A stretch of DNA of 21,718 bases from a virus: positions 1 to 21,718 of the IMG/VR virus record IMGVR_UViG_3300017824_000066; one strand, given 5' to 3'. Below the pieces are notes generated by a model. It worked only from the letters and a program-made list of their open reading frames with translations, made no database searches and was not told the origin of the DNA. Positions 9,677 through 21,164 of this stretch are shown here, piece by piece. The position numbers and the translations under genes are program-made. Numbering within the stretch: the first letter of the stretch is position 1; each line of letters begins with the position of its first letter.

Positions 9677-10387
9677 TTACAATTTACGAGCCATTTGCTC
9701 TTGGCGGCTTCGTGCTGATTCTATTTTGTTTTTCTGTGCTATATAACTCATCTCGGGCATAACAGTACTCATCTTTAGCATATATATCTCATCATACTTG
9801 GTTATGTCCTCTTTCGCTAACATACGGACTATTGAGTACCAATACCATTGTTGATTGAACAATGCCTCCCCAGTTTTTTCTTGTATCTCCTCATCCGTAT
9901 CTTCTTCATCAGGAACTTCATAGAACACGCCCTTGAATTGTGTAAACAAAACATACTCTCTGTTGTCAAGGAAAGATTGAAGAACAGCGTACACTTGCTT
10001 TACATCGGTGTTTAATATGTCATTTTGATTTAACTTCTCTTGACTAACATCCTCATTGTCAAATACTTCGTGATTTATTGGGCGCATAATAAGCTTCGCA
10101 AGCTCAAGGTCATTGTGTGCGCTTGACTCATAATTCACTTTACCAGTTATTATCTGCTCAATCATAATGAACTGACCAAGTATCAATTCATCAATTCTTG
10201 TATAACAATTGAATTTTTTTAGCGTGTCCTCATTGATTTTGTTCTTGCTGTCTATAGGATATGTAGTTGATACATCTCTGATTGCCTCTATCCTTTCGTG
10301 TGGAGGTAGTGATTCAAGATAACCCGATAGGTTCTTGTCTCTTTCTATGTACTTATTAATCTCTAAGTGCTGTCTGAATGTTATCAT
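9677..10387 (-). CDS. Probable tail assembly chaperone (or unknown virion assembly protein)
   Basis: The product is 236 aa if it starts at the ATG at 10385-10387, which overlaps the TerL stop as ATGA. An upstream in-frame start at 10438 would add 17 Cys/Arg-rich residues coded inside the TerL C-terminal codons; I prefer the ATGA start. The protein is helical and acidic in the middle (PDEEDTDEEIQEKTGE). Its C-terminal part, with QQWYWYSIVRMLAKEDITKY followed by YDEIYMLKMSTVMPEMSYIA, resembles the WY-S--LA--DI pattern of tail assembly chaperones (gpG/gpT role) that load the tape measure. The position, two genes before the tape measure, is compatible. I see no slippery frameshift site at its end. 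Not a portal: too short and lacking that fold. Confidence 0.4.
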   Translation of the reverse strand: MITFRQHLEINKYIERDKNLSGYLESLPPHERIEAIRDVSTTYPIDSKNKINEDTLKKFNCYTRIDELILGQFIMIEQIITGKVNYESSAHNDLELAKLIMRPINHEVFDNEDVSQEKLNQNDILNTDVKQVYAVLQSFLDNREYVLFTQFKGVFYEVPDEEDTDEEIQEKTGEALFNQQWYWYSIVRMLAKEDITKYDEIYMLKMSTVMPEMSYIAQKNKIESARSRQEQMARKL

Positions 10388-11637
10388 AGGAACAAAGTTA
10401 CTCCTCCATCCTGCTCTTCTGCTGCACAGTACGCACAAATCGCTAACGACATTACCATATCATCGTGTTTACCATCAGTATTACTGAACTGAAGGTTACC
10501 CGTAATAGCGTTTCTCTTGCTTTTAAAGTCGTATAATTCCTTGATTAAGTCATCATTCTTAGGAATTTTTATGACTTTATCCTCAAATAGTTTGATTAAG
10601 TTACGAATAATCTCGGGTTTACTCTGCGCTGAGGTAATAAAAGGGATAAGCTTGTACATATTCTCGTCATCAGTAATATCGTCAAACAAGAGGTCGTTAT
10701 TGTTTACCTCGAAGTAGGCCGCTGCTAAGTACTTGTCGTGTTTTAGGTAGAACGCTTTTATGCGTTCTTTGAACTCATCGTAGTCCATACCCTCTTCCTT
10801 GTAATTAAATCTATCTACATCTATTACAACATAGTCCTCAGTCATTGCCGTAAGCACCGTGTAATCCTGTGCTACACCAATATCCATCCCGATATACACC
10901 CTCTCGTAATTCTTTGGTGGTAAACCATCGTACACCGCATCCTCTACATTACTAAACAAAGCATTTGCACTTACAGGTCTACACAAGAACTCTTGGTCAA
11001 ACTGTGCCTTGGTCATACTCTTCTTAATCCCAAGTACAGTCTTCTCCACCGCAGGGTCATTAAGGTCAAGGTAGGTCTTCTTGATACTTTTTATTTGGTC
11101 CCAGTTTTCCTCTATCTGTCCTTCCTTGTACCAATCGTAAAACCAGTTCGGACCATTGAATGTACTTGCTGCTGCTACCCTACCACCTGTCCTTGTTACC
11201 ATAGGCAACAACACTTCGTTGATAAAGTCCAACTTCATATATGCCGCCTCATCCAAGTAGATATAGTCAAGAGTGGCACCACGAAGATTATCCCCACTAT
11301 CAGCAGACCTAAACTTAATAAACGAACCATTGTAAAAATACATCTCATTTGCCTTCCTGTCATACCGCTTAATTATCTTATCCCAAACTTCTTGGTGGTT
11401 ACTGAACATACTCTCAATGTCCTTCATCACTTTGTTCGCTTGGTCTTGGATAGGCGATACCCAGAACATACGGTGTTTAGGGTTGTTTAAAGCCCTCATC
11501 ACAGCATCGTTCTGCATAAAGAAGGTCTTACCTGTCTGTCTACCTGCAACAAGGCATCCAATGAAAGGCTTGTCCTCGTGTATGAGGCGATAGAAGTCCT
11601 TCTGTGGCTCTGTAGGTTCGTATAGTTTTATTTGCAT
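10384..11637 (-). CDS. terL: Terminase large subunit
   Basis: This 417-aa protein is the ATPase-nuclease motor that packages DNA into proheads. The ATPase half has Walker A AGRQTGKT (31-38), Walker B YIYLDEA (125-131, with Glu130 as catalytic carboxylate) and a coupling motif AASTFNGP (156-163). The nuclease half has the RNase-H-like acidic triad: Asp252 in GMDIG, Glu310 in YFEVNN and Asp392/393 in KHDDMVMSLA. It is short for a TerL (typically 420-600) but has all key residues. The ATG overlaps the TerS stop in a TAATG junction, and its stop overlaps the next ATG as ATGA, showing tight translational coupling. Confidence 0.95.
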   Translation of the reverse strand: MQIKLYEPTEPQKDFYRLIHEDKPFIGCLVAGRQTGKTFFMQNDAVMRALNNPKHRMFWVSPIQDQANKVMKDIESMFSNHQEVWDKIIKRYDRKANEMYFYNGSFIKFRSADSGDNLRGATLDYIYLDEAAYMKLDFINEVLLPMVTRTGGRVAAASTFNGPNWFYDWYKEGQIEENWDQIKSIKKTYLDLNDPAVEKTVLGIKKSMTKAQFDQEFLCRPVSANALFSNVEDAVYDGLPPKNYERVYIGMDIGVAQDYTVLTAMTEDYVVIDVDRFNYKEEGMDYDEFKERIKAFYLKHDKYLAAAYFEVNNNDLLFDDITDDENMYKLIPFITSAQSKPEIIRNLIKLFEDKVIKIPKNDDLIKELYDFKSKRNAITGNLQFSNTDGKHDDMVMSLAICAYCAAEEQDGGVTLFL

Positions 11638-12445: not shown

Positions 12446-12559
12446 TTATAATATATTAGGATAACCTAATTATAATACCTTTACTTACATAGTAAAGGTA
12501 TTATTATAATAGTATTAGTGTAAAGTAAGACTATTATAATAATAGTATATATTATAATA
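12446..12559. repeat. AT-rich dyad cluster with five TTATAATA repeats and two stem-loops
   Basis: The octamer TTATAATA occurs at 12446, 12470, 12504, 12534 and 12552. Two inverted repeats lie inside: ATTAGG/CCTAAT (12455-12460 with 12465-12470) and a 14-bp perfect stem (12472-12485 with 12491-12504, loop of five). CTATTATAATAATAG (12531-12545) is an almost perfect palindrome. The 16-mer TTATAATAATAGTATA (12534-12549) recurs twice at 18346 and 18404. The stem core TAATACC/GGTATTA also recurs in the hairpin at 18381-18402. It lies between two divergent gene arms, so an operator cluster or replication origin are the main options. Confidence 0.7.
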
Positions 12560-18303: not shown

Positions 18304-18370
18304 TTTAGATGATTTTATTGATGCTGAATACCAGTATCAAGAGTATTATAATAATAGTATAAATAAGTAA
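18278..18370 (+). CDS. Possible 30-aa acidic peptide
   Basis: ATG AAA ATG TGG at 18278 (or the second ATG at 18284) opens a frame of 30 codons to TAA (18368-18370), overlapping the coiled-coil gene by 26 bases. The product, MKMWITDSNLDDFIDAEYQY then QEYYNNSINK, has a normal acidic composition, which favours a real gene over chance. However, its last codons are the repeat TTATAATAATAGTATA, so the end may be regulatory. Confidence 0.3.
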   Translation: MKMWITDSNLDDFIDAEYQYQEYYNNSINK

Positions 18371-18419
18371 TAGTATAATAGTAATACCCTTTAGGGTATT
18401 ACTTTATAATAATAGTATA
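18344..18419. repeat. AT-rich repeat module upstream of the sigma-like gene
   Basis: The 16-mer TTATAATAATAGTATA occurs at 18346-18361 and 18404-18419, and again at 12534-12549 in the divergent region. Between the two copies is a perfect hairpin GTAATACCC-TTTA-GGGTATTAC (18381-18402), whose TAATACC/GGTATTA core is also the core of the 12472-12504 stem. The module ends eight bases before the sigma-like start. It may be an autoregulatory site, a promoter or a terminator-attenuator; the hairpin is followed by only a short T run. Confidence 0.65.
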
Positions 18420-18426
18420 CAGAGCA

Positions 18427-19146
18427 ATGAAGATTACAAACGATGATATCAAGAAGTGGTTCCCACGAAACAATAGGTTCCTATACTTCTGTGCAAAGTA
18501 CTACGGACTTACCTTCTACAAGGATGAGGTAGTTGAACACGCAGCGTACCTTGCATTCAAGAACATCAAGAGGTATATGGATAGGGATGAGGAGTTTGAG
18601 AACGAGAAGCAGAAGATAGGGATGGCGATGAGTGCTTTCCGATTCGCTATACTGAACTCCTATAAGACCTACGAGAGTGCCAATAGGAGGAACTTAGATG
18701 CACGAACTGAGTCCGAACTAACCTACGGCTATGACGGAGATGAATACAGCGTGTATCAGTCTAATTTGATATCACACGATACGCACTATGATAACTCTAC
18801 CGAACTACTCAAGGAGTTTATAGAGACTAACCTACCCTACCTACAACGCAAGGTTATTATTGAGTGCTTCTTTAATGGTAAGGGATACAGTGAACTTGCA
18901 AGTGAACTGGAGGTATCAAGGCGTAAGATTGAGTTGGCAAAGTACAAAGCCTTCACAAAGATTAAGGAATACTATAAACAACAAGAGAGAGATGAAGACC
19001 GTTACAAAGAGACTACCAATAACAAGCAATACATTCCAGCGTCTTACAGCAAGTTACGAGCAGAGACACTCCGTAAACCCATTGAAGAAGAGCAGAGAAG
19101 AGAGGTACGTTATTCCGAGGCAATGTCTTTTATACATTCTTCATAA
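18427..19146 (+). CDS. Sigma-70-like (ECF type) transcription factor
   Basis: A 239-aa protein with sigma factor layout. The N-terminal half (about 10-90) is a helical region-2-like block (KDEVVEHAAYLAFKNIKRYM and FRFAILNSYK). Region 4 is the clearest part: LPYLQRKVIIECFFNGKGYS (136-155) then ELASELEVSRRKIELAKYKA (156-175), a helix-turn-helix of sigma-70 region 4. No region 3 or 1.1 is present. It would join host RNA polymerase and direct it to phage promoters. The last ~50 residues (Lys/Glu-rich) overlap, out of frame, the DnaA-like gene. The repeat module at 18344-18419 is directly upstream. It may be divergent or act as a region-4-only regulator. Confidence 0.6.
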   Translation: MKITNDDIKKWFPRNNRFLYFCAKYYGLTFYKDEVVEHAAYLAFKNIKRYMDRDEEFENEKQKIGMAMSAFRFAILNSYKTYESANRRNLDARTESELTYGYDGDEYSVYQSNLISHDTHYDNSTELLKEFIETNLPYLQRKVIIECFFNGKGYSELASELEVSRRKIELAKYKAFTKIKEYYKQQERDEDRYKETTNNKQYIPASYSKLRAETLRKPIEEEQRREVRYSEAMSFIHSS

Positions 19147-19465
19147 GAAATATAAGCAGACATCAATCCACATAGGTCGTTTAGCAGGTAAGGACCACGC
19201 CACTATAATCCATAGTTGCAAGGTCTTAGATAACGCCTTGTATTGGAGAGATGCAAAGTACATTGAAGCCATAAACAACTGGTCCGAAATCTTTACTGAG
19301 GTGCTACCTAACAGTGAGGAGACCAAGCAAGAGTTGACCGATAAGATAACTCTTATGCTACTCGGTACGATGCTATCAAACGATAGTAAGGAGGAGGTTT
19401 TAGATATGGTAAAAGAAAAAATATTAAACAAGAACGTGCAAGAGAGTGATTTTGCAGTAATTTAG
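18992..19465 (+). CDS. DnaA domain IV-like DNA-binding protein (no ATPase)
   Basis: From the ATG at 18992 this is 157 aa. Residues about 35-100 match DnaA domain IV, the DnaA-box-binding part: SREERYVIPRQCLLYILHKK (34-53), SIHIGRLAGKDHATIIHSCK (58-77). The GKDHATIIHS stretch matches the DnaA signature GxxDHxTVxH. The rest is an acidic helix with no AAA+ ATPase domain. It overlaps the sigma-like gene by 155 bases in another frame, including the first domain-IV helix; an in-frame TTG at 19082 would shorten the overlap. A longer frame from 18860 is rejected as N-terminal extension. It may bind DnaA-box-like sites to recruit or block replication. Next gene starts 22 nt later. Confidence 0.72.
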   Translation: MKTVTKRLPITSNTFQRLTASYEQRHSVNPLKKSREERYVIPRQCLLYILHKKYKQTSIHIGRLAGKDHATIIHSCKVLDNALYWRDAKYIEAINNWSEIFTEVLPNSEETKQELTDKITLMLLGTMLSNDSKEEVLDMVKEKILNKNVQESDFAVI

Positions 19466-19487
19466 TAGTAACCAATTTAAATTAGAT

Positions 19488-20021
19488 ATGAGCAATTACA
19501 AATTCAAGACAACCAACATCAAGGGGAAAGAGTATGTTGAGGTTAACGAGAGAATCAAGTACTTCCGATTCTCTGATGATTACAAAGGATGGTCGCTATC
19601 TTCTGAGATAGTACACCTTGATGCTGACTCGTGTGTGATACGAGCAGAGATTCGTGATGACCAATGGGTGCTAAGAGCCACTGGCTTTGCCCAAGAGGAT
19701 AAGTCAAGTAGTTACATCAACAAGACAAGTTATGTGGAGAACTGTGAGACAAGTGCTTGGGGTCGTGCCTTGGCTAATCTCGGTATTGGGATTGACACTT
19801 CTATTGCGAGTAGCAACGAGGTATCAATTGCTATCGCAAAGCAGAATGGTACACCTAAGACTGAGACTAAGGCGGCTAACAAACCCTCGCTATTGGAATT
19901 AACTGATGACATCGTTGAGAAGATGGTAGATGCAGTTAAGAATGGTAAGCGTGATGCCGTTGAGAATGCCTTAGGCAAGTACAAGGTATCTGCCCAGCAG
20001 AAGAAACTAATCTTAGGATAA
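19488..20021 (+). CDS. Putative single-strand DNA annealing protein
   Basis: A 177-aa protein with the block ENCETSAWGRALANLGIGID (84-103), preceded by YINKTSY, and an N-terminal YVEVNERIKYFRF. I recognise this as a widespread phage family usually found beside exonuclease genes and often annotated as ssDNA-annealing (Erf/Rad52-type) protein; the exact family name is uncertain. It would anneal complementary single strands in recombination-dependent replication. The C-terminal 50 residues (SLLELTDDIVEKMVDAVKNG) are a separate helical tail. The stop overlaps the nuclease ATG (TAATG), which strongly supports joint function. Confidence 0.6.
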   Translation: MSNYKFKTTNIKGKEYVEVNERIKYFRFSDDYKGWSLSSEIVHLDADSCVIRAEIRDDQWVLRATGFAQEDKSSSYINKTSYVENCETSAWGRALANLGIGIDTSIASSNEVSIAIAKQNGTPKTETKAANKPSLLELTDDIVEKMVDAVKNGKRDAVENALGKYKVSAQQKKLILG

Positions 20022-20779
20022 TGGTTGATATAATAGAAAGGTTTAACGATGATGAGGTGTACTATGCGGACAGAGAGTATCTGTCCAATAGTTCCCTCAA
20101 GTTATTAAAGGAGTCCCCAACCAAGTTTGACTTGTGGCGTAAGAACAAATGGTCTCAATCATCTACCTCAGCGTTTGATGTAGGCCGTGCTTTACACGCA
20201 AGGTTCTTAGAGGACAAGGTAAACTACACAGGATGGGATGGTGCAAGGAGAGGTGCAGAATACAAGAACTTCTGTGCTGAGAATCCCGATACCATTGTAC
20301 TCACAAAGAATGACTACCACATCGTTGAGGGTATGTACGACAAACTATCTAAGGTTCCTCAAGTGGAGGAGATTATGGGCTTGTCTATGAAACCCGAAGT
20401 GCCTGGTGTTATGGAATGGGAAACGGCAAAGGGCAACATCATCAAGGTAAAAGGTAAGGCAGATGCCTTGGCTTGGGACGGTGAGTTATCCTACCTTGTA
20501 GACCTAAAGACTACGAAGGACCCATTGCATAAGTGGAAGAAGAATGCCTTCTACAACTACGCACAACAAGCCTATCTATACAGCCAAATCTTTGAAGTAG
20601 ATGTGTTCTACTTCCTTGTGGTACAGAAAGAGTTCCCTTACGAGGTAGGCATATACAAGGCAGGGGATGCGTTCCTTGCACGAGGAGAGAGAGAGTTAGA
20701 AGATTCTATAGAACTATACGAAAGATTATTTATTGATGGAGAATACCAACCCTACAGTGCAGACATTGACATCATATAG
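20021..20779 (+). CDS. RecE-like PD-(D/E)XK exonuclease
   Basis: A 252-aa nuclease of the RecE/lambda-exonuclease type. It begins with a YLSNSSLKLLKESPTKFDLW block (20-39), then FDVGRALHARFLE (52-64, with His59), then catalytic core residues in KVKGKADAL (Asp148) and LVDLKTTKD (Asp161 and Lys163), and AQQAYLYSQ (181-189). These fit the PD-(D/E)XK order with the lysine two residues after the acid. It would degrade 5' ends of double-stranded DNA to make 3' overhangs for the annealing protein. It overlaps that gene by one base at its start and the next gene at its end. Confidence 0.82.
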   Translation: MVDIIERFNDDEVYYADREYLSNSSLKLLKESPTKFDLWRKNKWSQSSTSAFDVGRALHARFLEDKVNYTGWDGARRGAEYKNFCAENPDTIVLTKNDYHIVEGMYDKLSKVPQVEEIMGLSMKPEVPGVMEWETAKGNIIKVKGKADALAWDGELSYLVDLKTTKDPLHKWKKNAFYNYAQQAYLYSQIFEVDVFYFLVVQKEFPYEVGIYKAGDAFLARGERELEDSIELYERLFIDGEYQPYSADIDII

Positions 20780-21164
20780 TAGCCTTGAGAACTTGGTGGT
20801 CTATGCGACCAGCACAGTTACCAATGTTCCTTTAGCAGAGATAATGTCTAATGGAAAGAAAAAAGAAATCGCAATGGCTAAGAGTATTGCGTGTCAACTA
20901 TTAAGCGAGTACGGATATGGTGTTCGTGAGATAGGTAGACTAATTAATCTTGACCCGAAAGGTGTTAATGTGTACATCGGTTCACACGAGAATCGTCTTG
21001 CTGACAAGCGGTACAGCATTAAGTACACTAAGGTTAAATCGTTTGTTGAGGGCTATGAGCAATCAAATGAGGTAAAGCTGAACGCCTTAATGGAGCTGAA
21101 GGCAGAGTACTTGAGACTGTCTGAGAAGTACGAGCATTTAAAAGAACTATTAACAAGTAACTAA
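20736..21164 (+). CDS. Second DnaA domain IV-like helix-turn-helix protein
   Basis: The ATG at 20736 is preferred over the in-frame TTG at 20733; it gives 142 aa and a 44-base overlap with the nuclease gene. Residues about 31-85 look like a DnaA domain IV helix set: VPLAEIMSNGKKKEIAMAKS (31-50), IACQLLSEYGYGVREIGRLI (51-70), then NLDPKGVNVYIGSHENRL (71-88). The position of the recognition helix matches, but the usual DH-T motif is replaced by DPKGVNVY, so DNA specificity is probably changed. The C-terminal 35 residues are a coiled coil (KAEYLRLSEKYEHLKELL). A role in origin binding is inference. Confidence 0.5.
   Translation: MENTNPTVQTLTSYSSLENLVVYATSTVTNVPLAEIMSNGKKKEIAMAKSIACQLLSEYGYGVREIGRLINLDPKGVNVYIGSHENRLADKRYSIKYTKVKSFVEGYEQSNEVKLNALMELKAEYLRLSEKYEHLKELLTSN

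Follow-up and report, generated by a model that had tools for sequence, protein, structure and literature searches.

A gene for a sigma-like protein and a gene for a protein resembling domain IV of DnaA share 155 nt of DNA in the window, which is an entire IMG/VR virus record of 21718 bp. The shared stretch (18992-19146, plus strand) has a relative frame of +1. It almost certainly codes for both proteins, the second starting at an internal ATG, as judged from a comparison of related sequences. Its coordinates, length and frame are exactly those given in an earlier sequence-only reading of this DNA. All 30 distinct records (the window and 29 IMG/VR contigs) have an overlap in the +1 frame and an ATG start for the DnaA-like gene; the overlap is 140-179 nt long, with a median of 164. 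Identity of the contigs to the window is 28-68% for the sigma-like protein and 27-64% for the DnaA-like protein.

Relatives were gathered by a scan with the downstream exonuclease, which gave 22, and by further scans, which gave L071, L072 and L088. Wherever both genes can be read in these, the +1 frame is open and the ATG lies 155-179 nt before the sigma stop. A second query consisted of the sigma core without its tail, so as to avoid bias from patterns within the overlap. It gave ten more distinct homologues, with identity down to 28%; 10/10 have an overlap, of 140-170 nt. Sigma homologues without the overlap were sought among all the records found, and there are none. A homologue whose sigma-like protein ends before 19082, the case that the earlier reading had named as evidence against it, was also looked for among the homologues and not found. 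Taken by itself, the window gives only a moderate case against chance, as synonymous resampling leaves the second frame open with a P of about 0.04; it is the comparison across records that is decisive for the overlap.

The structural genes of the window, including terminase (10384-11637), are on the minus strand. The plus-strand operon extends from about 13 kb onward and contains the sigma-like and DnaA-domain-IV-like genes, with a recombination/replication-type exonuclease gene (20021-20779) downstream of the latter. The sigma-like gene runs on the plus strand from an ATG at 18427 to a stop at 19146. It encodes 239 aa: an ECF-type core (about residues 15-182) and a C-terminal tail of about 57 aa. 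TIGR02937 (sigma70-ECF) covers residues 15-182 with E=6e-10 and 39.0 bits against a cut-off of 42.9; the match ends at profile position 164 of 165. Sigma-70 region 4 is matched at E=3e-5, just under Pfam's cut-off, and the PF08281 score is 24.1 bits against 25.7. The homology to TIGR02937 and to region 4 agrees with the original sigma-like call, at scores below the curated cut-offs. The best Foldseek matches of the protein model include ECF sigmas. Past residue 182 the sequence is extra tail, and residues 189-239 are encoded within the overlap. The tail is modelled with low confidence (pLDDT about 40-50) and is probably flexible; its most conserved part is YSEAMSFIH (19111-19137, plus strand). 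Protein-only scans with the sigma-like sequence for close relatives returned no match in bacterial (host) genomes and no match in viral contigs and phages.

The DnaA-like gene runs on the plus strand from the ATG at 18992 to a stop at 19465. Its product of 157 aa comprises domain IV (about residues 11-84) and a three-helix C-terminal extension. PF08299 (Bac_DnaA_C) is matched with E=3e-10 and 40.4 bits, above the curated cut-off of 31.5, and 13/13 family members tested also match, which bears out the domain assignment made from the window. An AAA+ domain III was sought in the 157 aa without a match. The model has a pLDDT of 86, with helices at 12-26 and 37-53, and the top structures in Foldseek are the DnaA DNA-binding domains 3pvp and 1j1v. 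In E. coli DnaA, residues R407, Q408, H434, T436 and H439 are reportedly in contact with DNA (Fujikawa et al. 2003). Positions 13-81 of the family profile align to 1J1V, the DNA-bound domain IV of E. coli DnaA. This alignment places R399, R407 and Q408 of E. coli opposite R35, R43 and Q44, three residues whose codons lie in the overlap; the counterparts of H434, T436 and H439 are H69, T71 and H74, encoded beyond it. A DNA contact by R399 has also been described (PMC9638019). Among 32 phage proteins R35, R43 and H69 are invariant, and A70, T71 and H74 are nearly so. The overlap thus encodes both N-terminal helices of domain IV (12-26 and 37-53) and the basic loop. This amounts to about 126 nt of folded dual coding, well above the 50 or so bases estimated initially.

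Pairs of DnaA-IV-like and sigma-like proteins are known from gene transfer agents (GTAs). GafY of Caulobacter, a stand-alone DnaA-IV-like protein, has GafZ as its partner in a complex. It binds at the promoters of the GTA cluster and of the operon that encodes it, and it also makes contact with sigma-70 domains 3-4; GafA of Rhodobacter is a fused form similar to DnaA and to sigma factors (PMC9632790, PMC9638019, PMC11150451). The likeness to the present genes is that a stand-alone DnaA-IV-like protein and a sigma-like protein are encoded in one operon of a phage-type system. The Gaf proteins differ in being alphaproteobacterial and in having the DnaA-like part first and the sigma-like part second, and no long out-of-frame overlap is noted in the available text of these papers. 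The sigma-like protein described here has sigma70-ECF homology over both main regions. DUF6456, the family of GafA and GafZ, was sought in 20 sigma-like members and gave no match at E<=0.5, so membership of the GafZ/DUF6456 family is rejected. ECF-type sigmas of phages and bacteria (TIGR02937, phrog_1740) share the core, residues 15-182; the present protein differs from them in its tail of about 57 aa, mostly encoded by the overlap, and in a core that scores below curated cut-offs. Pelagibacter phage HTVC034P and the Skadi phages have the same DnaA-IV domain without AAA+, but no sigma-like gene adjoins it there, and long overlaps are absent.

A role in transcription is proposed on this basis. 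The upstream gene would give a sigma-like protein with a tail, and the downstream gene, from its internal ATG, a DnaA-IV DNA-binding protein. The two would be made together and probably paired on the host RNA polymerase, one being a factor for promoter specificity or for elongation, the other a site-specific DNA-binding activator. Such a pair would switch on the late (structural) operon and regulate its own, in the manner of GafY and GafZ. By analogy with these proteins, a joint function in transcription has about an even chance of being correct. The combined explanation of dual coding, an overprinted tail and paired late-gene activation is considered likely as the best account of the locus. 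Points that count against it are the sigma scores under the curated cut-offs, the low model confidence of the tail, the lack of a match to the GafZ family and a gene order opposite to that of gafYZ.

A near-palindromic sequence, TAATAATAGTAT, occurs five times in the window (12504, 12537, 14060, 18349, 18407) against 0.3 expected. One pair, with a spacing of 33 nt, occupies 12504-12548 in front of the structural (late) operon on the minus strand; it adjoins a hairpin (12469-12507) at the head of that operon. The sites at 18349-18360 and 18407-18418 (plus strand) are upstream of the sigma gene, and between them is the hairpin GTAATACCC-tttA-GGGTATTAC (18381-18402, plus strand). The sequence thus precedes both operons, which resembles the targets of GafY (promoters of its own operon and of the structural cluster). 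A pair precedes the structural operon in nearly all relatives. The window and nine relatives carry a TAATAATAGTAT pair 33-34 nt apart beside a hairpin at that operon's head; in one record the pair is 24 nt apart and inverted. Most of these records have sites again upstream of the sigma gene, on either side of a hairpin, and L072 has none at its sigma gene. The reversed pattern, used as a control, gives 0-6 counts per record, so single sites mean little and it is their placement that counts. In the window the sites have the same strand orientation at both operons despite divergent transcription, a pattern more in keeping with a symmetric protein site than with a promoter hexamer. The placement before the late and the sigma-DnaA operons is suggestive only, a hint of a regulon at the level of sequence. 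The hairpins beside the sites are candidates for a terminator, a leader structure or an operator. It is possible, if less likely than not, that the overprinted tail (AMSF) contacts the DnaA-IV partner or RNA polymerase and that the pair reads TAATAATAGTAT at the late promoter and its own. If so, these phages would have a transcription system independent of the alphaproteobacterial GafYZ, and the shared DNA would leave recombination unable to separate the specificity factor from its DNA-binding partner. Separately, the arms of the hairpins adjacent to the sites co-vary across relatives; one example is GTAATACCC/GGGTATTAC in the window and GTAATATCC/GGATATTAC in L037.

The main rival to the transcription model is action at a replication origin. 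The overlap would then be real, but the DnaA-IV-like protein would bind the phage origin or titrate host DnaA boxes, and would be tied to the sigma gene only by sharing an operon with it. Recombination/replication-type genes such as the exonuclease do come next, DnaA-IV-like genes of pelagiphages are annotated as replication initiation, and the DNA-contact residues of domain IV are kept. However, the protein lacks an AAA+ domain III, which rules out working in the manner of DnaA. The window has no excess of DnaA-box-like sites (3 found against 3.3 expected), GafY, the characterised stand-alone DnaA-IV-like protein, acts in transcription rather than replication, and the sigma gene is adjacent in 30/30 records. 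A replication role is therefore rated as unlikely. The sequence-only reading had suggested that the locus might link transcription and origin control. The first half of this is retained by inference; origin control is the less likely half, given the lack of enrichment of DnaA-box-like sites and the precedent of GafY, GafZ and GafA.

Selection is visible in both frames. Substitutions per third position were counted on a tree of the 30 records. In the sigma frame they number 3.91 in the overlap and 7.84 outside it (p=7.8e-12); in the DnaA frame, 5.48 and 8.16 (p=3.3e-8). An earlier set of 20 records gave the same drop in both frames. The codon-wise comparison of homologues that had been proposed as a check thus finds third-position change reduced in each frame; together with the overlap, its frame and the ATG in 30/30 records, this upholds the dual-coding reading. 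In windows along the gene, the synonymous drop in the sigma frame begins approximately at the DnaA start, and the first few DnaA-like codons are weakly constrained. Identical residues reuse the same codon more often within the overlap, at 78% against 56% outside it in the sigma frame and 68% against 58% in the DnaA frame (ten lineages; the pairs are not independent). When one protein is held fixed in simulations, the other frame gains stops in 36-100% of trials; none are observed in the records.

The clearest signal lies in the DnaA residues RQCL (19118-19129), which are the +1 reading of the YSEAMSFIH segment of the sigma tail. Among the codons of RQCL, Cys is TGT in 30/30 records, Leu is CTT in 30/30, and Gln is never CAG. 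The invariant TGT and CTT preserve the S and F of the sigma motif AMSF, beyond what the DnaA-like protein needs. Third positions of the DnaA frame average about 8 substitutions outside the overlap, and the invariance of these codons therefore points to selection of the sigma tail for its own sake, most clearly at AMSF. An alternative is that the tail is functionless read-through: the DnaA frame alone would be under selection, an earlier sigma stop would be impossible, and the tail would be tolerated. The low model confidence of the tail is compatible with this. So are pairwise identity tests with the DnaA-like protein fixed, in which most sigma-frame identities other than AMSF are explained and, in several pairs, lie at the expected level. 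These tests are conservative and their outcome is mixed, so third-position rates and invariant codons are relied on instead. A functionless tail is improbable on this evidence, as DnaA third positions change less in the overlap than outside it, TGT and CTT are invariant, and simulations that fix the DnaA-like protein alone put stops into the sigma frame in 57-100% of trials.

Whether the two proteins are separate or fused bears on how the overlap is used. Programmed +1 frameshifting, raised in the sequence-only reading, would give a sigma-DnaA fusion protein. The frames are related by +1, and a fused sigma-like/DnaA-like protein is known in GafA of Rhodobacter; the domain order of GafA, however, is the opposite one. 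The DnaA-like gene has its own ATG in 30/30 records. Codons at the sigma stop differ between records (TCA_TAA, ATA_TAA, GTA_TAA, GAA_TAG, CTA_TAA), and the position of the stop shifts by up to 9 nt among close relatives. No conserved shift site or shift-prone stop was found when stop contexts and positions were compared among relatives. A fusion made in this way is very improbable; with a separate ATG and an unconserved stop context, independent internal initiation is the simplest reading.

It is hardly credible, too, that the DnaA-like protein begins further downstream and that only a short overlap is used. An in-frame TTG at 19082 had been put forward as another start in the window, but relatives do not conserve it. 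L035 has just one listed start codon in the overlap region, the ATG; in L036 the next start codon after the ATG falls deep within the domain. Helix 12-26 folds with high confidence and aligns to DnaA domain IV, and the fall in sigma synonymous change sets in at about the ATG. The largest group of relatives has an in-frame stop a few codons 5' of this ATG. That a sequencing or assembly indel fused two ordinary neighbours is practically impossible, despite the metagenomic origin of the record, because identical frames recur in 30 distinct records from many samples.

Internal initiation within a shared stretch raises the matter of which frame is older. Many other phages carry DnaA-IV-like genes next to something other than this sigma, with a short overlap or none. 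The overlap takes in half of domain IV but none of the ECF core, which stops short of it. We infer that the DnaA-IV frame is probably the older of the two and that the sigma tail arose by overprinting on it. Codon usage is not informative here (z of -0.5 and 0.2 in the overlap; the sigma frame outside it is itself at -3.3). As in the overprinted virus genes of published surveys (PMC8903798, PMC7017920), two proteins are encoded in different frames of one DNA. Viral +1 overlaps have a median of 14 nt and an interquartile range of 8-26 (PMC8903798), unlike the 140-179 nt found here, which include a folded DNA-binding domain.

Long overlaps are already known; the pairing of sigma and DnaA and the depth to which it is kept appear to be new. 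Searches of open-access papers turned up no deeply kept overlap of 140-179 nt between a sigma tail and a DnaA DNA-binding domain, and an exact-term search for a phage-encoded DnaA domain IV protein returned nothing. Long overlaps in phage genomes are often written off as start-site errors, whereas here both frames are under selection across divergent phages. About half of a folded DNA-binding domain sits in dual-coding DNA, and the overlap is a clean natural case for studies of overprinting. It also suggests that pairs of DnaA-IV and sigma-like proteins are a broader phage late-gene switch, beyond gene transfer agents. Gene callers that bar long overlaps will cut the DnaA-like gene short or overlook it.

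Several features lie downstream of the overlap. The sequence GTAATTTAGTAGTAAyCAATT (19457-19477), which lies at the DnaA-like stop and just past it, is conserved across many relatives, even those in which the DnaA-like gene terminates sooner. It therefore probably serves the next gene as a non-coding signal. The triple stop TAGTAGTAA after the DnaA-like gene was checked for enrichment elsewhere, and there is none. The next gene (19488-20021) encodes a different protein in the window than in L038 (753-1298) and L002; the flanks are conserved on each side, which suggests a replaceable recombination-gene slot. A second DnaA-domain-IV-like gene is found at 20736-21164 on the plus strand (PF08299, 2.5e-5, below cut-off). 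Its ATG lies 44 nt inside the exonuclease gene (stop 20779), in the +1 frame; overlaps elsewhere in the window had been put at 1-11 nt, which is too short. The first 15 records checked all have this second overlap at exactly 44 nt; in four that are more distant it measures 44-62 nt.
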